Source: Salipiger bermudensis (GTDB taxonomy: Bacteria > Pseudomonadota > Alphaproteobacteria > Rhodobacterales > Rhodobacteraceae). Taken from it: a stretch of 64,000 nt of DNA. Positions 44,063-55,962 of the stretch are shown piece by piece; positions within the stretch are counted from its first letter, which is position 1; each line of letters opens with the position of its first letter. The position numbers were made by a program, and so were the translations under genes. The DNA is taken from assembly GCF_020171625.1 (NCBI RefSeq), contig NZ_JAIUZY010000013.1, positions 62,001-126,000 on the forward strand, in the 5' to 3' direction. The notes below the pieces were generated by a model, which made no database searches, was not told the origin of the DNA, and saw only the letters and a list, made by a program, of their open reading frames with translations.

Positions 44063-45147
44063 GCCCGCTCTCCCGTCTGCAGAAGCAGCCCCGGGCGGAT
44101 CACCCCGCCCACCGCCGGGGCGGCGCGGCCATTGCCCAGCCGCTCGGTCAGCGCGTCGTAGCGCCCCCCGGTGGCCACCGGGGGCAGATCGGGCCGCGTG
44201 GTGGGGACGAAGCCGAAGACGAAGCCGTCGTAATACTCCATTGAACTGCGCCCGTAGCTCGCCTCGAATTCCAGCGTGGCCACGTCGACGCCACGCGCGG
44301 CCAGCGCCTCGCAGCGGCGCTCGAAGCGCTCCACGGCCGGCAGCAGCGCCGGCATGTCGACGGCGATGTCGTGCAGCTGCTCGAGCGCGAAGGAGCAGGT
44401 CTCGCGCACTGCAAGCAACGTGTCGATCAGCGCCACCTGGCTCTCGCAGAGCGGGCCTTCGGCGGCGTCCTCGCGCAGCGAGACGATGCGTGCGGCCACC
44501 TCAGCCTCGGAGCGCAGGCCGATCGCCGGGGCCGCGGTGTCCATCGGGTTCTCTGCCGCCAGCAGAGCCTTGCGCGAGGCCGGCACCGGGCTGCGGCCGG
44601 AGTAGCGGTCGAGCAGGGCGCGGAAGCGGCGCGGGCGCCAGATGTGGCGCATCAGCGCGGCACGGCGGCGCTCGGAGGTCTCGAGCCCCGCGACGGCGGC
44701 GGTCAGGATGCCGATATCGCCGGTCACCGCGCGCAGCCGGTAGGGCGCGAGCGTCTCTGCGAACAGCGCGAAGACCTCGGCATCGGCCTGCGCGGAATCG
44801 TCATCGGCGAAGAGCTCGAAGCCGACCTGGAAATACTCCGGCGCGCGTTCGGGATGCTCTTCCTGGCGGCGGAAGACCTCGCCGGCATAGGTGTAGCGCG
44901 ACGGCGCGGCGCCGGTCTCCATGTGCATCTGCACCACCGGCACGGTGAAGTCGGGTCGCAGCATGACCTCGCCGCGGGCGGGATCGTGGGTCACGTAGGT
45001 CCGCGCCCGGATGTCCTCGCCATAGAGGTCGAGCAGGGTCTCCGCCGGCTGCAGGATGGCGCAGTCCACATTCTCGGCGCCGGCCTCGAGAAAGCGCGCC
45101 CGCAGGCGGACGGCTTCGGCGCGCTCCTGCGCTGTGGTCACGCCCAT
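44059..45147 (-). CDS. hisZ: ATP phosphoribosyltransferase regulatory subunit HisZ
   Basis: Histidyl-tRNA-synthetase-like regulatory subunit lacking the anticodon domain. 362 residues. Class II-type motif 2 resembles [15 protein letters not shown] ... [15 protein letters not shown] late [17 protein letters not shown] matches motif 3. The start at 45147 overlaps the 3' end of hisS by 10 nt; longer frames would run further into hisS. Confidence 0.94.
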
Positions 45148-46610
45148 TGGTTCAGGATCTCTCTCACCTTGGCGACCAGATCGCCGCGCGCCACCTCGTA
45201 TTGCGAGGGGCGCTCCTTCCATTCCTCGAGACTGGCGCTCTCGGCCAGTTTGGCGCCGAGGATCAGGTCCTTGATCTGCAGCACGCCACGCTCTTTCTCG
45301 TCGCCGCCCTCGATGATCGCGACCGGCGAGCTGCGCTTGTCGGCATACTTGAGCTGGTTGCCGAAATTCTTCGGATTGCCGAGATAGACCTCGGCGCGGA
45401 TGCCCGCGTTGCGCAGCTCGGCCACCATGGCCTGGTAATCGGCCATGCGGTCGCGATCCATCACCGTCACCACGACGGGGCCCTGAACGGTGCCGCCGAT
45501 GCGGCCCTTCTCGCGCAAAGCCGCGAGCAGCCGGTCGACGCCGATGGAGACGCCGGTTGCGGGCACCGCCTGACCGGTGAAGCGCTTGACGAGGTCGTCA
45601 TAGCGCCCGCCGCCCGCCACCGAGCCGAACTGGCGCTTGCGGCCCTTCTCGTCGAAGATCTCGAAGGTCAGCGCTGCCTCGAAGACCGGGCCGGTGTAAT
45701 AGCCGAGCCCGCGCACCACGCTGGGGTCGATCTCGATGCGGTCGGGGCCGTAGCCCTGCGACGCCAGCAACGCGCCGATCTCCTCGAGCTCGGATACGCC
45801 CTCGGCGCCGATCTCGGAGCTGCCGACCGCGGCGCGCAGGTTGGCCACCGTGGCGGCGGTGTCGCTGCCCTTGGAGGTCAGGAAGGCGACCACCGGCTCC
45901 GCCTGCGCCTCGCTCAGGCCCACGCCGTCGATATAGGCGCCCGAGGCGTCGAGCCGGCCCTTGCCGAGCAGCTCGCGCACGCCGGCCTCGCCGACCTTGT
46001 CGAACTTGTCGATGGTGCGCAGCACCGCGTCGCGCTGCGCGTCGTCATCGAGGCCCATGGTCTCGAGCACGCCGTTGAGAACCTTGCGGTTGTTGACCCG
46101 CACCAGGTAGTCGCCGCGGGGAATGCCAACCACTTCCAGCGTGTCGGCCAGCATGGCGCAGATCTCGGCATCCGCGGCGACGCTTGCGGCGCCCACGGTG
46201 TCGGCGTCGCACTGGTAGAACTGGCGGAAGCGGCCGGGGCCGGGCTTCTCGTTGCGCCAGACCGGGCCCATGGCGTAGCGGCGATAGGGCAGGGGCAGGT
46301 CGTTGCGGTGCTGGGCATAGACCCGCGCCAGCGGCGCCGTCAGGTCGTAGCGCAGCGCCATCCAGCTTTCGTCCTCGTCCTGCCAGGCGAACACGCCCTC
46401 GTTAGGGCGGTCGACGTCGGGGAGGAACTTGCCGAGCGCCTCGACGGTCTCCACCGCGCTCGATTCCAGCGCGTCGAAGCCGTAGCGATGATACACCCCG
46501 GCGATGGCCTCGAGCATCTCGGCGCGCTCGGTCACTTCGGGACCGAAATAGTCGCGGAAGCCCTTCGGCGTCTGTGCCTTGGGGCGGGGGGCTTTTTTCA
46601 CTTTGGCCAT
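45138..46610 (-). CDS. hisS: histidyl-tRNA synthetase
   Basis: Class II aminoacyl-tRNA synthetase, 490 residues. Motif 1 region [13 protein letters not shown], motif 2 [20 protein letters not shown], histidine-specific loops [13 protein letters not shown] and [12 protein letters not shown], then the C-terminal anticodon-binding domain ([17 protein letters not shown]). The N-terminus has a basic leader ([12 protein letters not shown]). First gene of hisS-hisZ-hisG. Confidence 0.96.
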
Positions 46611-46721: not shown

Positions 46722-46848
46722 GGATGCCTCCGGCGGGGATATTTAAAGCCAGAAGAAGACAGGGGAGCAGCGCTCTCCACCCGCCCTGGTTTCTTCTGGC
46801 CAAAAATATCCCGGGGGGAGGCCGTCAGGCCGGGGGGCAGCGCCCCCC
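46722..46848. repeat. two dispersed-repeat copies in inverted orientation
   Basis: A plus-strand copy (46722-46765: GCCTCCGGCGGGGATATTTA, AAGCCAGAAGAAGACAGG) faces a minus-strand copy (46783-46848). Read on the minus strand, the latter runs from a GGGGG-CGCTG-CCCCC hairpin through GGCC-TGAC-GGCC and CCCCCCGGGATATTT to GGCCAGAAGAAACCAGGG. The GGGATATTT-3 nt-GCCAGAAGAA parts match at 19 of 22 positions and could pair into a long stem. The pair fills most of the 324-bp divergent hisS-slyX region, which has no gene. The minus-strand copy is the closest relative of the element inside xdhB. Confidence 0.8.
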
Positions 46849-47156: not shown

Positions 47157-50100
47157 TCAGAAATCCTCCACCGCCATCACCCCGTCGAGCGATTTCACCG
47201 CTCCCTTGATCTCGGGGGTGACGGGGAATTCTTGCCTGAGATCCATCTCGACCTCGCCCGGCAGGCCGGAGCCCGCGAAGCACAGCCGCACCGGGCCGCG
47301 GCCGGCGCGGGGCATCTGCTCGGCGGCGCGGCCCAGAACCGAGGCGACCTGCGCCACCGTGTCCGGGTTCTCGATGTAGATCTTCATCCCCGCGGCCCCG
47401 GCATCGGCGACCACCTGCTCGACCGGGCCGAAGGAGCGCGCCAGCAGCTTGAGCTGATCGGATTCCATCGTCGCCTCGACGGTGACCACGACCTTGGTGC
47501 CGGTCTCCAGCAGGTCGCGCGCCTTTTCCAGCGTGTCCGAGAAGATCGTCACCTCGTAGGCGCCGCTCGGGTCCGAGAGCTGGGCGAAGGCGAAGCGGTT
47601 GCCCTTGGCCGACTTGCGCTCCTGCCGACCGGCCACCACGCCGCCCATCTTGGCGATGCAGGCGCCGCCGCGGGCCTTGTCCTCGACCTCGTCGAGCGTC
47701 AGTACGTCGCGCCGTTTGAGCGCCGGCATGTAATCGTCGAGCGGGTGGCCCGAGAGGTAGAAGCCGATCGCCTTGAACTCCTCCGAGAGCCGCTCGGCGG
47801 GCAGCCAGTCGGGCGCCGGCGACAGCCGTGGCTCGGGCAGGTCGTCGCCCGCCTCGCCGAAGAGCGAGACCTGCGCCGAGGCCTTCTGCTCGTGGATCGC
47901 GGCGGAATAGGCCACCAGCGCGTCGAGCGATTCGAAGATCCGGCGGCGGTTGCGGTCGAGCTGGTCGAAACAGCCGGCCCGCGCCATCATCTCGAGCGGT
48001 CGCTTGCCGACGCGCTTGAGATCGACCCGGCGGGCGAAATCGTAGACGTTGACGAAGGGCTTGTCGGGGCTTTTGGGGTCCTCGGGCACAGAGCGGCGCC
48101 CCTCGACCACCAGCCGCATCGCATCGAGGCCGACGTTCTTCAGCGCGCCGAGCGCGTAGACCAGCTTGCCGTCGACCACGTCGAAGCTTGCCTGCGAGCG
48201 GTTCACGCAGGGCGGGATGTAGTCGAGCTTCAGGCCCTTCTTGGTCTCGTAGAAATAGACCGCGAGCTTCTCGGTGAGATGGATATCGCAGTTCATCACG
48301 CCGGCCATGAACTCGACCGGGTGGTTCGCCTTGAGCCAGGCGGTCTGGTAGCTCACCACCGCGTAGGCGGCGGCGTGGGACTTGTTGAAGCCGTAGTTGG
48401 CGAATTTCTCGAGCAGGTCGAAGACCTCGGTGGCCTTCCGCTTCTCGACACCGTTCTTGGCAGCGCCGGACTCGAATTTCGGGCGCTCGGCGTCCATCGC
48501 CTCCTTGATCTTCTTGCCCATGGCGCGGCGCAGCAGGTCGGCGCCGCCGAGCGAGTAGCCCGCCATCTCCTGGGCGATCTGCATCACCTGTTCCTGGTAG
48601 ACGATGATGCCCTGCGTCTCGGCGAGGATGTGGTCGATCGAGGGATGCACCGAGGTGATCTCGCGCTGGCCGTTCTTGACCTCGCAATAGACCGGGATGT
48701 TCTCCATCGGGCCGGGGCGATAGAGCGCCACGAGCGCCACGATGTCCTCGATGCAGGTCGGCTTCATGCGCTTGAGCGCGTCCATCATGCCGGTGGATTC
48801 CACCTGGAACACGGCGACGGTCTTGGCCGAGGCGTAGAGCTTGTAGGTCTTGTCGTCATCCAGCGGGATGAGGTTCATCTGGTTCTCGCCGCCCTCGGCC
48901 GGCTCGTAGAGCTGGGTGCCGTCAGCGGCGACATGGATCGGGCGGCCGGACTTGAGGATCAGGTCCACCGCGTTCTGGATCACCGTCAGCGTCTTCAGGC
49001 CGAGGAAGTCGAACTTCACCAGACCGGCCTGTTCGACCCATTTCATGTTGAACTGGGTCGCCGGCATGTCCGAGCGCGGATCTTGGTAGAGCGGCACCAG
49101 CTCGTCGGTGGGGCGGTCGGCGATCACCACGCCGGCGGCGTGGGTGCCGGCGGAGCGCAGCAGGCCCTCGACCTGCATCCCGTATTTCAGCAGCCGGTCG
49201 ACGACCTCTTCGCGCTCGGCCTCCTCGCGCAGGCGCGGCTCGTCCTGCAGCGCCTTCTCGATCGACACGGGCTTCACGCCTTCGACGGGGATCATCTTCG
49301 ACAGCCGGTCGACCTGCCCGTAGGGCATCTGCAGCACCCGGCCCATGTCGCGGACCGCGGCCTTGGAAAGCAGCGCGCCGAAGGTGATGATCTGCCCCAC
49401 CTTGTCGCGGCCGTATTTCTCCTGAACGTAGCGGATCACCTCTTCGCGGCGATCCATGCAGAAGTCGATGTCGAAGTCAGGCATCGAGACCCGTTCGGGG
49501 TTGAGGAAGCGCTCGAACAGCAGCGAGTAGCGCAGCGGGTCGAGGTCGGTGATGGTCAGCGCGTAGGCCACCAGAGAGCCCGCGCCCGAGCCCCGACCGG
49601 GGCCGACGGGAATGTCGTGATCCTTGGCCCACTTGATGAAGTCGGCAACGATCAGGAAGTAGCCCGGAAAGCCCATGCCCTCGATGATGCCAAGCTCGAA
49701 ATCCAGCCGTTCCTGGTATTTCTCCACCGTCACCGCGTGCGGGATCACCGACAGGCGCTTCTGCAGGCCCTCGTTGGCCTGACGGCGCAGTTCGACCACC
49801 TCGTCATCGGCGAATTTCGGCAGGATCGGGTCGCGGCGATAGGCCATGAAGGCGCAGCGCTTGGCGATCTCGACGGTGTTCTCCAGCGCCTCGGGCAGGT
49901 CGGCGAAGAGCGTCGCCATCTCCTGAGGGGTCTTGAGGTAGTGCTGCGGCGTCAGCCGCCGGCGTGGCTCCTGCTGGTCGACATAGGCGCCCTCGGCGAT
50001 GCAGATCATCGCGTCATGCGCCTCGTACATGTTCTCCTTGGGGAAATACACGTCGTTGGTCGCCACCAGCGGCAGGCCCATCTCGTAGGCCATCTCGACG

Positions 50101-50681
50101 TGACCGCGCTCGGTCAGGCGCTCGGCCTCCGGCAGGCCGTCTTCGCCCGGGTGGCGCTGAAGCTCGACATAGAGCCGGTCCTGATAGATCTGGTGCAGCC
50201 GGGTGAGCAGGGTCTGCGCCGCGGCGCGGTGGTTTTCGCGCAGAAGCCGGCCGACCGGGCCATCGGGACCGCCGGAGAGACAGATCACCCCCTCGCCGTA
50301 TTCCTCGAGCTCGTCCAGCAGCACATGCGCCAGCTCGCCGTCGCGCCGCAGGTAGAGGCACGAGTTGAGCTTCATCAGGTTCTCGTAGCCGCGCTCGTTC
50401 TGGGCCAGCAGCACCACCGGCGCCGGCGGCTTCGGGCGCTCGCCGGGCGTCGGCTGCACGTAGCGCAGATCCACCTGGCAGCCGACGATCGGCTGCACGC
50501 CGGCGCCGCTCGCGGTCACCGAGAACTCGAGCGCCGCAAACAGGTTGTTGGTGTCTGTCACCGCCACGGCGGGCATCTCCATGGCCTCGCAGAGGCCGGG
50601 CAGCTTCTTCAGGCGGATGGCGCCTTCGAGCAGGGAGTATTCGGTGTGAACGCGGAGGTGAATGAATCGGGGATCTGCCAT
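47157..50681 (-). CDS. dnaE: DNA polymerase III alpha subunit DnaE
   Basis: Replicative polymerase. 1174 residues. The N-terminal PHP domain starts FIHLRVHTEYSLLEGAIRLK. The catalytic core has the PDFDIDFCMDRREEVIRYVQ motif near 405 with the active-site Asp residues, and the DFLGLKTLTVI motif. The helix-hairpin-helix and OB-fold follow (VEATMESDQLKLLARSF). The ATG at 50681 gives the standard MADPRFIHLRVHTEYS start; upstream frame sequence is non-homologous. The equally long plus-strand frame is antisense shadow. Confidence 0.97.
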   Translation of the reverse strand: MADPRFIHLRVHTEYSLLEGAIRLKKLPGLCEAMEMPAVAVTDTNNLFAALEFSVTASGAGVQPIVGCQVDLRYVQPTPGERPKPPAPVVLLAQNERGYENLMKLNSCLYLRRDGELAHVLLDELEEYGEGVICLSGGPDGPVGRLLRENHRAAAQTLLTRLHQIYQDRLYVELQRHPGEDGLPEAERLTERGHVEMAYEMGLPLVATNDVYFPKENMYEAHDAMICIAEGAYVDQQEPRRRLTPQHYLKTPQEMATLFADLPEALENTVEIAKRCAFMAYRRDPILPKFADDEVVELRRQANEGLQKRLSVIPHAVTVEKYQERLDFELGIIEGMGFPGYFLIVADFIKWAKDHDIPVGPGRGSGAGSLVAYALTITDLDPLRYSLLFERFLNPERVSMPDFDIDFCMDRREEVIRYVQEKYGRDKVGQIITFGALLSKAAVRDMGRVLQMPYGQVDRLSKMIPVEGVKPVSIEKALQDEPRLREEAEREEVVDRLLKYGMQVEGLLRSAGTHAAGVVIADRPTDELVPLYQDPRSDMPATQFNMKWVEQAGLVKFDFLGLKTLTVIQNAVDLILKSGRPIHVAADGTQLYEPAEGGENQMNLIPLDDDKTYKLYASAKTVAVFQVESTGMMDALKRMKPTCIEDIVALVALYRPGPMENIPVYCEVKNGQREITSVHPSIDHILAETQGIIVYQEQVMQIAQEMAGYSLGGADLLRRAMGKKIKEAMDAERPKFESGAAKNGVEKRKATEVFDLLEKFANYGFNKSHAAAYAVVSYQTAWLKANHPVEFMAGVMNCDIHLTEKLAVYFYETKKGLKLDYIPPCVNRSQASFDVVDGKLVYALGALKNVGLDAMRLVVEGRRSVPEDPKSPDKPFVNVYDFARRVDLKRVGKRPLEMMARAGCFDQLDRNRRRIFESLDALVAYSAAIHEQKASAQVSLFGEAGDDLPEPRLSPAPDWLPAERLSEEFKAIGFYLSGHPLDDYMPALKRRDVLTLDEVEDKARGGACIAKMGGVVAGRQERKSAKGNRFAFAQLSDPSGAYEVTIFSDTLEKARDLLETGTKVVVTVEATMESDQLKLLARSFGPVEQVVADAGAAGMKIYIENPDTVAQVASVLGRAAEQMPRAGRGPVRLCFAGSGLPGEVEMDLRQEFPVTPEIKGAVKSLDGVMAVEDF

Positions 50682-52126: not shown

Positions 52127-53509
52127 ATGGATATCTGCTTTCTTCTGAACGGGGAAAGAGTGGAGCTGCGCGGCGTGTCCCCGACGCGCACGGCTCTCGA
52201 CTGGCTGCGCGAGGACCGCGGCCTCGGCGGCACCAAGGAAGGTTGCAACGAGGGCGATTGCGGCGCGTGCACGGTGATGGTCACCGACGCGCGCGGCTCG
52301 CGCGCCCTCAACGCCTGCATCCTGTTCCTGCCGCAGTTGCACGGGAAGGCGCTGCGCACCGTCGAGGGGCTTGCGGGCCCCGATGGCAGCCTGCACCCGG
52401 TGCAGGAGGCGATGGTCACGCATCACGGTTCGCAATGCGGCTTCTGCACGCCGGGCTTCGTCGTCTCGATGGCCAAGGCGCACAAGGTCGGCGACACCCA
52501 TCACGATGACGCGCTCGCGGGCAACCTGTGCCGCTGCACCGGCTACGCGCCCATCGTGCGCGCCGCCGAGGCCGCGGCCGAGGCGCCGGTGCCTGACTGG
52601 ATGGAAGAGCCGGCGCTTCCCGAGGTGGCCGGGCAGGTCTCCTCTGCCGATCTCAGTGCGCATTCGCCCTCGACCAGCGACGAGCTGGCCGAGCTGATCG
52701 CCAAGCACCCCTCGGCCACCATCGTCGCCGGTGCCACCGATGTCGGGCTGTGGGTCACCAAGCAGCTGCGCGAGCTGCCGGAGGTGATCTTCCTCAACCG
52801 ATGCGAGGACCTGCAGCAGATCGAGGTCACCGATGAGGCCATCCGGATCGGGGCGGGCGTCACCATGGACCGGATGCTCGATCTGATGCGCGAGCACTTC
52901 CCCAGCTATGCCGGGATGCTGCGCCGCTACGGCTCGGCGCAGGTGCGCGCCGCCGCCACCCTCGGCGGCAACATCGCCAACGGCTCGCCGATCGGGGACA
53001 ACCCGCCGGCGCTGATCGCGCTGGGCGCGCGCCTGCACCTGCGCTTCCGCGACACGCGGCGCGAGATGGCGCTGGAGGACTTCTTCCTCGACTACGGCAA
53101 GCAGGATCGCTACCCGGGCGAGTTCGTCGAGGCGGTGTCGATCCCGCGCCAGCCCGACCGGCTGAAGGTCTACAAGCTGTCGAAACGCTTCGATCAGGAC
53201 ATCTCGGCAGTCTGCGGGGCGTTCAACGTCACCGTCGAGGACGGCAAGGTCGCCAGCGCCCGCATCGCGTTCGGCGGCATGGCGGGCATTCCCAAACGCG
53301 CCGCCGCGGTCGAGGCGGCACTGACTGGCAAACCGTGGAACGACGAGACGGTGGTCGCCGCGTGGGACGCGTGGGAGCAGGATTTCTCGCCGCTTTCGGA
53401 CATGCGGGCGAGCGCCTCCTACCGGCTCGTCGCGGCGCGCAACATGCTGACCCGCTGCCTGCTCGAGGACATGGGCGCGGCCACCGATGTGCGGGAGGTG
53501 CGGGCATGA
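52127..53509 (+). CDS. xdhA: xanthine dehydrogenase small subunit XdhA (2Fe-2S and FAD)
   Basis: Electron-transfer subunit for oxidation of hypoxanthine and xanthine to urate. 460 residues. The first [2Fe-2S] uses C40, C45, C48 and C64 ([12 protein letters not shown]); the second uses C104, C107, C135 and C137 ([16 protein letters not shown]). The FAD domain begins near 185, with [20 protein letters not shown] and [20 protein letters not shown]. The ATG at 52127 fits the family N-terminus. The stop overlaps the xdhB start by 4 nt. Confidence 0.96.
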
Positions 53510-55962
53510 GTGTTACGAAACCGCTGCCGCATGACGCGGCGCCGCTGCATGTCACCGGCAAGGCGCGCTATATCGACGATATCCCGGTGCCGCCGGGCTG
53601 CCTGCACATGGCGTTCGGCCTGTCGGAGATCGCCTCGGGCCGGATCCGCGAGATCGACCTCTCCGAAGTGCGCCGCGCGCCGGGGGTGGTGAAAGTCTGG
53701 GAGGCCAAGGACCTGCCGTCGGATTGCGACTGCTCGCCCTCGCTGCATGACGAGCCGCTGCTGTCGGGCGCCTCGGTGCATTACGTCGGCCAGCCGGTCT
53801 TCATGGTCGCGGCCACGAGCCACCTTGCCGCCCGCAAGGCGGTGCGCAAGGCCAAGATCACCTACCAGCCACGCGATGCGGTGCTGACGGTCGACGAAGC
53901 GATGGCCGCCGACAGCCGCTTCGAGGATGGCCCCCGGATCTGGGAGAAGGGCGATGCCGACGCGGCGATCGCCGAGGCGCCGCACACGGTCTCGGGCACG
54001 ATCGAGATGGGCGGGCAGGAGCATTTCTACCTCGAGGGGCAGGCCGCGCTGGTGCTGCCGCAGGAAAACGGCGACCTGCTGGTGCACAGCTCGACCCAGC
54101 ACCCGAGCGAGATTCAGCACAAGGTCGCGCACGCGCTGCACCTGCCGATGCATGGCGTGCGGGTCGAGACCCGGCGCATGGGCGGTGGCTTCGGCGGCAA
54201 GGAAAGCCAGGGCAACGCGCTGGCCATCGCCTGCGCCGTAGCCGCGGCGGAGACCGGACGGCCCGCCAAGATGCGCTATGACCGCGACGACGACATGGTG
54301 ATCACCGGCAAGCGCCACGATTTCCGCATCGAGTACAGCGCCGGTTTCGACGGCGAGGGGCGCCTGACCGGCGTGGATTTCGTGCACTACGCCCGCTGCG
54401 GCTGGGCGCAGGACCTGTCGCTGCCGGTGGCGGACCGGGCCATGCTGCACTCGGACAACGCCTATGACATTCCCAGCCTGCGGGTCGAGAGCCACCGGCT
54501 GAAGACCAACACCCAGAGCGCCACCGCCTATCGCGGCTTTGGCGGGCCGCAGGGGATGCTCGGGATCGAGCGGGTGCTCGACCACGTCGCCCACGCCTTG
54601 GGGCGCGACCCGCTCGAGATCCGGCGGGTCAACTACTATGCCGATGCCGACGCGGCGGAGAACGCGGACGGGGGGCTGTCTGCCCCCCGGGCGCCTGCGG
54701 AGCAGGCACCTCCCCCCGAGGATATTTCCGGCCAGAAGAAACAGGCGGCCTCGGAGGAGGACCTGACCTCGCGCGGGGCGGTGTCGAGCCTGCCCGAAGG
54801 GCCCGTGCCCGGCGTGCCGTCGGACAAGCAGGTGACGCATTACGGCCAGCCGGTGGAGGATTTCATCCTCGGCGATCTGACCGGGCGGCTGGCCGAGAGC
54901 TGCGATTACGCGGCGCGGCGCGCGGCGGTGGCCCGGTGGAACGCGGACACGCCGCTGCTGAAGCGGGGCATCGCGCTGACGCCGGTGAAGTTCGGCATTT
55001 CCTTCACGCTCACCCATCTCAATCAGGCGGGCGCGCTGGTGCATGTCTATCAGGACGGCTCGGTCACGCTGAACCATGGCGGCACGGAGATGGGGCAGGG
55101 CCTGTTCCAGAAGGTGGCGCAGGTGGCGGCGGCGCGGTTCGGCCTGCCGCTCGACCGGGTGCGGATCACCGCGACCGATACCGCCAAGGTGCCCAATACC
55201 TCGGCCACGGCGGCCTCGTCGGGCTCGGACCTGAACGGCATGGCGGTGAAGGCCGCCTGCGACACCATCCGCGACCGCATGGCCGAGCATCTGGCAGGGC
55301 TTTTCCAGGCCAAGGCCTCGGAGGTCGTCTTTGCCGGGGGCGAGGTCACGGTCGGCACCGAGACGCTGAGCTTCGCGCAGGCGGCCAAGCTCTGCTACGA
55401 GGGCCGGGTGAGCCTGTCGTCGACCGGGTTCTACAAGACCCCGAAGGTGGCGTGGGACCGGATCAGGGGGCAGGGGCGCCCGTTCTTCTATTTCGCCTAC
55501 GGCGCGGCCTGCACCGAGGTGGTGCTCGACACGCTGACCGGCGAGTACCGCATCCTGCGCACCGACATCCTGCACGATTGCGGCGCCTCGCTGAACCCGG
55601 CGCTCGACATCGGCCAGATCGAGGGCGGCTACGTGCAGGGCGCCGGCTGGCTGACCACCGAGGAGCTGGTCTGGGACGGCGAGGGGCGGCTGCGCACCCA
55701 TGCGCCCTCGACCTACAAGATCCCGGCCTGTTCCGACCGGCCCGAGATCTTCAACGTGGCGCTGTGGGAGGGGCGCAACCCCGAGGAGACGATCTATCGC
55801 TCCAAGGCGGTGGGCGAGCCGCCGTTCATGCTGGGAATCTCTGTGTTCTTTGCGCTGTCGGACGCGGTGGCGGCCTGCGGCACGCGCTACCCGGCGCTCG
55901 ATGCGCCCGCGACGCCCGAGCGGGTGCTCATGGCGATCCGGAAGGTGCGCGATGAGCTTTGA
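53506..55962 (+). CDS. xdhB: xanthine dehydrogenase large subunit XdhB (molybdopterin)
   Basis: Molybdenum-cofactor subunit. 818 residues, about 40 longer than the Rhodobacter-type subunit as I remember it. Motifs include [57 protein letters not shown] and the catalytic Glu in [13 protein letters not shown]. Residues about 388-414 are encoded by a dispersed intergenic repeat (see the repeat at 54669) and form a Pro/Ala/Glu-rich stretch in a linker before [20 protein letters not shown]. The frame stays open and the motifs on both sides are intact, so the enzyme is probably functional. It overlaps xdhC by 11 nt. Confidence 0.96.
54669..54745 (+). repeat. dispersed repeat element in frame within xdhB
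   Basis: 77-nt copy of the family at 46783-46848. Order: hairpin GGGGGGC-TGTCT-GCCCCCC (54670-54688), hairpin GCCTGC-GGA-GCAGGC (54693-54707), then CTCCCCCCGAGGATATTT and GGCCAGAAGAAACAGG. The 46.8 kb copy has the same order with different stem bases. It adds no stop and preserves the xdhB frame. Confidence 0.8.

Follow-up and report, generated by a model that had tools for sequence, protein, structure and literature searches.

A palindromic repeat read in frame in the xanthine dehydrogenase linker of Rhodobacterales: a seemingly old coding copy that changes with the repeats of its genome

The usual view of palindromic repeats within coding sequences is that of selfish DNA tolerated by the host protein. 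REP sequences, which are short palindromic repeats, undergo concerted evolution through gene conversion, and Rickettsia palindromic elements (RPEs) were reportedly described by Ogata et al. in 2000. RPEs hit many genes, and a review counts 19 reading frames that carry them (PMC2229807). Intragenic REPs of the GTAG/CGTC type are palindromes located mostly downstream of genes, some of them inside ORFs; one lies at about the same recB site in two Xanthomonas species, and some REP-containing ORFs are the sole such ORFs of their species (PMC3733652, excerpts). In these excerpts of PMC3733652, a coding copy that matches its own genome's variant across genera is not described. Among the papers returned by searches of an open-licence library, none had a title or abstract opening that described the repeat presented below or repeats in xdh genes.

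We analysed a window of 64,000 nucleotides of Salipiger bermudensis (GCF_020171625.1, contig NZ_JAIUZY010000013.1, positions 62,001 to 126,000; "the window" designates this whole stretch). The original prediction, made from the letters alone, proposed that a small intergenic repeat had been inserted in frame in xdhB. Gene positions were obtained with our own codon-usage gene finder, and the dnaE-like and hisS-like genes were named from their Pfam domains. The features are:

46738..46757, plus strand: second tail facing the copy at 46783..46848 (composite element), GATATTTAAAGCCAGAAGAA preceded by GCCTCCGGCGGG
46783..46848, minus strand: intergenic copy between the dnaE-like gene (47157-50681, minus) and the hisS-like gene (45138-46610, minus)
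52127..53509, plus strand: xdhA, whose linker between the 2Fe-2S and FAD domains has no recognisable copy of the element in this genome
53506..55962, plus strand: xdhB, xanthine dehydrogenase molybdopterin subunit, 818 codons, frame intact
54669..54745, plus strand: in-frame copy of the palindromic repeat in xdhB, residues about 388-413 (26 aa)
54670..54688, plus strand: hairpin 1, G6-CTGTCTG-C6, seen in the sequence and in folds
54693..54707, plus strand: hairpin 2, GCCTGC-GGA-GCAGGC, seen in folds, its pairing kept elsewhere through compensatory changes
54709..54721, plus strand: small hairpin 3 at the second C run (CCTC / GAGG), as predicted by folding the 77 bases
54721..54741, plus strand: GATATTT and the genome-specific tail CCGGCCAGAAGAAA, translated D-I-S-G-Q-K-K

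From 54670 to 54741 the element of xdhB is ordered as G6-CTGTCT-GC6, the second hairpin, C6-GAG, GATATTT and CCGGCCAGAAGAAA; of hairpin 3, just two pairs are present in the shorter fold. As predicted, the same parts follow one another on the minus strand at 46783-46848, with identity in 59 of 81 aligned columns, the 818-codon frame (53506-55962) is intact around the insert, and the insert belongs to a linker between molybdopterin domains, residues 388-413 standing between Pfam MoCoBD_1 (146-377) and MoCoBD_2 (462-746). The best solved relative of XdhB is 1jro_B; nicotinate dehydrogenase is made as two chains that meet near the linker, 3hrd_A ending and 3hrd_B beginning there (query 378 and 486). 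An exact tail copy at 46790-46810 is also located outside the genes predicted in the window. With up to 2 mismatches allowed, the tail pattern gave 3 matches in the window versus 0 in 100 shuffles. The linker is GC-rich and hypervariable in length and sequence, as would suit a plain Pro/Ala-rich linker whose likeness to the repeat is a matter of chance; the shuffles, together with the genome-matched tails and the covariation of hairpin 2 presented below, make such a coincidence extremely improbable. No Rfam family matched the window at the gathering score, and a consensus scan for a simple intrinsic terminator (GC stem followed by a T run) found none at either window copy.

The repeat is abundant in this genome. 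The GATATTTNNGGCCAGAAGAAR tail had 46 matches genome-wide and its backward control 0, so that the recurrence between genes on which the original prediction hinged was confirmed. All 44 tail copies beyond the window are intergenic according to the codon-usage gene finder, 18 between convergent genes, 12 and 11 between co-directional genes, 2 between divergent genes and 1 at a contig end. By the same gene finder, the coding share of the exact-tail copies is 1/46, represented by xdhB alone, and of another 21 copies, from 20 loci of this genome, none lay inside a gene. The element of xdhB resembles an RPE in being a dispersed palindromic repeat translated in a conserved protein at a tolerant place (PMC2229807). 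When the two are compared by description, it differs in that a single gene of this genome carries a coding copy and in that the element tails follow the genome; the predicted analogy with RPEs thus holds in principle only, because one coding copy was found here and not many. A RAYT-driven REP was also considered and set aside: the RAYT gene (Y1_Tnp, PF01797) was found in 3 of the 18 genomes searched and is absent from this one. The locus departs from intragenic REPs by this absence. As to the GTAG or CGTC tag at the foot of REP palindromes, the sequences can be read either way: the xdhB copy has no GTAG, its foot is overlapped by GACG (complement CGTC; 54667-54670), which most other species' copies do not keep, and GACGTAG occurs within some tails of another class.

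Many intergenic copies share the anatomy of the xdhB copy, others have a different upstream end, and some are tail-to-tail composites with two tails facing each other. Near-equal lengths of the G and C runs were seen copy by copy (23 copies; own-genome loci L001-L030 and L141-L153). In these 23 copies, which follow one pattern, a longer G run goes with a longer first and a longer second C run (Spearman 0.95 and 0.97), as though pairing of the G run with either of the two were possible; the three runs of the xdhB copy measure 6, 6 and 6. The CTGTCT loop is rare in this genome, with 0 occurrences in the 43 loci first sampled and 3 in the 20 fetched later. CTGTCT-loop copies between genes are found in other genomes and at these three places, and the three intergenic copies concerned (L291-L293) share both the loop and GAGGATATTT with the xdhB copy. 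Other tail classes, GAGGTATTTTTGAACCARAGAAG and GGAGTATTTTTGACGWAGAGAAG, coexist in this genome with the class of the xdhB tail.

The distribution of the coding copy was assessed on 94 non-duplicate XdhB sequences. The tail, searched with a loose pattern in a single codon phase, was present in 40 of them, 33 with the G/C hairpin and 7 without. With the strict RRTATTT motif and free phase, 36 motifs were counted on the coding strand of the 94 linkers and all 36 lie in one codon phase; one additional motif was found on the opposite strand. Six of the 94 have the hairpin only, some by chance, as is probably the case of Ruegeria L096. Presence of these residues in most Rhodobacterales XdhB proteins would have refuted the original prediction; many of the Rhodobacterales compared have them, but not most, so that this objection applies in part. 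It holds as regards an intergenic repeat in frame in a domain linker, and not as regards a one-off or recent event, since 40 of 94 proteins carry the tail. Linker length ranges from 23 to 96 aa among relatives. It is 79 aa here versus 32 aa in another genome of the genus (G014), which is devoid of the element and supplies the insert-free relative that had been called for. The Rhodobacter linker, remembered as shorter, is indeed so; the R. capsulatus XdhB crystal sequence (1jro_B), with GGLSAP...PPEPIATKK in the linker and GGLSAPPSPPEPIATKK at the insert position, reads ERGGLSAPPSPPEPIATKKTQ and is therefore not insert-free. The xdhB of G015 (L129) carries the element and, further along that linker and close to a G run, a frame shift that could be a sequencing error.

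Tail-bearing proteins are found on both main branches of the midpoint-rooted XdhB tree, which requires at least 25 presence/absence changes when the hairpin-only rows are counted as present. One capture therefore needs many losses or transfers. An old capture followed by repeated loss or overwriting fits this distribution better than one recent insertion, and we tentatively infer a single old capture for xdhB, of which the common codon phase of its motifs and the absence of forward motifs from the xdhA linkers (below) are signs.

XdhA has its own copies. The element is found inverted and in frame in the linker between the 2Fe-2S and FAD domains in 22 of 95 XdhA rows, from 21 genomes, one genome being represented twice (L042, L121) and rows with stops or fewer than 400 residues being excluded. 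The pattern used for this count missed L061 and L106, which are recovered by a motif count over 90 linkers. In these 90 linkers the xdhA motif is always inverted and occurs in two codon phases (17 and 6), and the forward RRTATTT motif was found in none; the two phases point to more than one capture, or frame repair, in xdhA. Within the same gene cluster, the inverted XdhA copy (e.g. L177, L209, L267) is opposite in orientation to the xdhB copy; XdhA of the present genome has no copy. The xdhA and xdhB copies mostly share a CTGTCT-type loop, and in Actibacterium their hairpin 2 is identical. Among 96 copies from five relatives, each sampled in part, 6 fell within predicted genes and 1 on a gene edge; xdhA or xdhB accounts for 5 of these 6, and the other is at the N-terminus of a queG-like gene (L181, G048), where the in-frame position may reflect a misplaced start instead of a coding insertion. 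In the plasmid collection, whose gene table is incomplete, the best match was outside listed genes in 25 of 26 records. On a Cereibacter azotoformans plasmid (L311:2501-2567) the element is in frame in the gene of a FAD-binding-domain protein, which we take to be photolyase-like.

Seven other Salipiger genomes (L122-L128; G006, G007, G010-G012, G016, G018) have one or more VPAGT-like units in the xdhB linker. These units are mostly coded by another palindrome, GTCCCCGCGGGGAC, of which 33-57 copies were counted in six of the seven genomes of this clade, 4 in G007 and 0-18 in the other Salipiger searched. GTCCCCGCGGGGAC was within ordinary genes at 5 of 14 places checked in G006 and 6 of 17 in G000. 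A VPAGT label on the XdhB tree was set aside, as Ruegeria proteins were also matched by chance. A cluster of GTCCCCGCGGGGAC at L288 (bases 1000-1310; G000:C12:129031-129338) stands beside genes resembling plasmid repB and repC, and is possibly a centromere-like site.

The 12-base tail differs between genomes and that of xdhB follows its own genome. A first hint came from the counts of the GATATTT and AGTATTT variants in 57 genomes, with L036, L089 and L099 as exceptions. We then compared the xdhB tail of 31 species with the listed copies of the same genome, from which the xdhB copy was excluded and in which xdhA copies were included. The summed mismatches amounted to 25, compared with a mean of 96.9 and a minimum of 68 over 20000 permutations, a test that ignores kinship. 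Kinship was controlled only by comparison with the genome of the nearest relative, the own genome being better in 27 species, tied in 3 and worse in 1. Among the listed copies, an exact 12-base match was found in 19 of the 31 species. In the first 27 species the summed distance was 24 (permuted mean 82, minimum 58); another genome fitted better in 4 of these 27 (L086, L101, L120, L065) and ties were common. Of the four species added later, three of the same genus, 3 matched exactly over the 12 bases and 1 with one mismatch. The poorest own-genome fits were L086 (6 mismatches) and L048, L101 and L110 (3 each), in genomes with 2-7 listed copies. In Salipiger G000, G019 and G013, the GCCAGAAGAA, GCCACTGGAA and GTCAAAGGAA of xdhB, respectively, recur at other places of the same genome, and tails within a genome vary around a consensus. 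The xdhA tails matched their own genome exactly in 6 of 6 cases, a figure biased by the xdhA copies in the lists; once these were removed by eye, L053 had one mismatch and L069, L070, L074, L090 and L097 were still exact.

The lists sample the tails of each genome: 25, 34 and 35 of the rows listed for G000, G024 and G038 were used, for G058, G025 and G019 the tails were taken among the matches listed, and a narrower tail pattern was used for G008, G013, G017 and G032. Tails were verified against the sequences of their loci for all 18 of G048, all 17 of G019, 19 of 20 of G045 and 24 of 25 of G000, as well as 30 of 43 of G025 and 22 of 31 of G055, the remainder coming from the listed rows. As with REPs under concerted evolution, tails resemble each other more within a genome than at matching sites of other genomes; unlike them, a coding copy takes part here, and hairpin and tail can evolve separately.

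We next compared 22 pairs of loci, taken from different Salipiger species or different genera, whose flanking genes match on either side. Place and orientation of the element agree in 22/22 pairs, 3 of which have it inside the matching xdh gene, while the tail is each genome's own; these elements therefore move little. This bears on recurrent insertion, according to which the mobile repeat of each lineage would repeatedly enter the xdhB and xdhA linkers, a matched tail being the mark of a recent copy. The tails that match their own genome, the patchy distribution with its at least 25 changes, the two codon phases in xdhA and the presence of another abundant palindrome, GTCCCCGCGGGGAC, in the linkers of a separate clade of Salipiger are all as this explanation would have it. 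We nevertheless hold it to be unlikely, given the single orientation and codon phase of the 36/36 coding-strand motifs of xdhB, the CTGTCT-type loop mostly common to the xdhB and xdhA copies and rare in this genome, the sites and orientations kept between the same genes across genera, and the absence of a RAYT-type transposase from this genome.

The paired sites also inform on how tails change within an old capture. In L291 and L218 (Salipiger G000 and G019), 50 of the 50 bases upstream of the tail are alike and the tails differ as the genomes do; the element is located 13 and 7 bases, respectively, before a gene starting MAEKLYLYD/MTEKLYLYD. This is one case only, because the hairpin part differs too at most paired sites: in the other 21 pairs 17-45 of 50 bases are alike, two Roseovarius (L198/L256) sharing 45. 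An identical hairpin part with genome-typical tails is better accounted for if a shared reader selects all copies jointly than by the copying of whole elements, which would not leave such a pair. Gene conversion is a strong rival. In its extreme form, an old capture would be homogenised by short recombination tracts and the element would have no function in xdhB, which would readily produce the exact 12-base matches of 19/31 species and the common hairpin 2 of the Actibacterium xdhA and xdhB copies; the L291/L218 pair and the variation of tails around the consensus within a genome speak against it, and we regard gene conversion alone as possible but somewhat less than probable. As to the main driver of tail change, co-selection by a shared trans-acting tail reader and short-tract gene conversion appear about evenly balanced.

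Whichever process drives the tail, the xdhB copy bears signs of constraint both as nucleic acid and as peptide, which is our best reading of the following results. Among the 15 coding copies that are all 51 bases long, 94.3% of the hairpin 2 cells were paired, with a covariation of 0.669 that fell to 0.05-0.11 when the hairpin was slid. Folding of 31 distinct copies was stronger than that of synonymous shuffles (mean z -1.46, compared with -0.17 for 124 control windows). Taken singly, 14 of the 31 copies passed at 5%, the window's copy narrowly missing (17/300), and L052, L041, L068, L036, L050 and L097 showed little or no folding excess. Codon identity was high in the insert: with S. bermudensis, 26/26 codons are identical, compared with 589/706 same-residue codons elsewhere in the gene, and with six other Salipiger the values are 25/25, 17/20, 16/19, 17/21, 19/20 and 17/19, in every case a higher share than in the remainder of xdhB. 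At the protein level, codon 3 of the tail, a codon left free by the repeat, is Ser in 28 of 31 xdhB copies versus 140 of 631 listed copies, a sign of peptide-level selection.

On this basis, we propose as the probable explanation of the whole that the xdhB element is an old capture which is still a member of its repeat family, under concerted evolution and under a dual peptide and nucleic-acid constraint. A Rhodobacterales palindromic repeat would have been caught in frame long ago in the xdhB linker that joins the two molybdopterin domains. It would have escaped removal because this site permits many different peptides, and some lineages would have lost or overwritten it. Where it persists, its tail would change jointly with the other copies of the genome, compensating changes would keep hairpin 2 paired, and protein-level selection would act on it as well. 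Against this explanation weigh the many changes required on the XdhB tree, the four tails far from their own genome's listed copies, the species better fitted by another genome, the two codon phases of xdhA, the copies with little or no folding excess, the altered hairpin parts at most paired sites and the CTGTCT-loop copies between genes. The original observation was real and larger than stated, with the inverted XdhA copy and the genome-matched tail now added to it.

An in-frame copy that is seemingly old, yet goes on changing as a member of the repeat family around it, would be a new feature among coding palindromic repeats. Rather than the usual tolerated selfish insertion, the coding copy is seemingly old, spread over many genera of one order, in step with the other copies of its genome, and has kept its hairpins. 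Since in most species compared it ends in the genome-specific tail shared with the other copies of that genome, the same bases seem to work for both the protein and the repeat. As a bar code of the genome, the 12-base tail allows the process to be traced base by base, and both the joint change of dispersed short repeats and the presence of a regulatory repeat within a coding sequence become testable in marine bacteria. We suggest, tentatively and as the less likely prospect, that the linker bases of xdhA and xdhB double as a working gene-end regulatory element read in trans by a factor that coevolves with the tail. If these linkers do have such a dual purpose, xanthine dehydrogenase would, by way of its own coding sequence, be connected to a repeat regulon spanning the genome.
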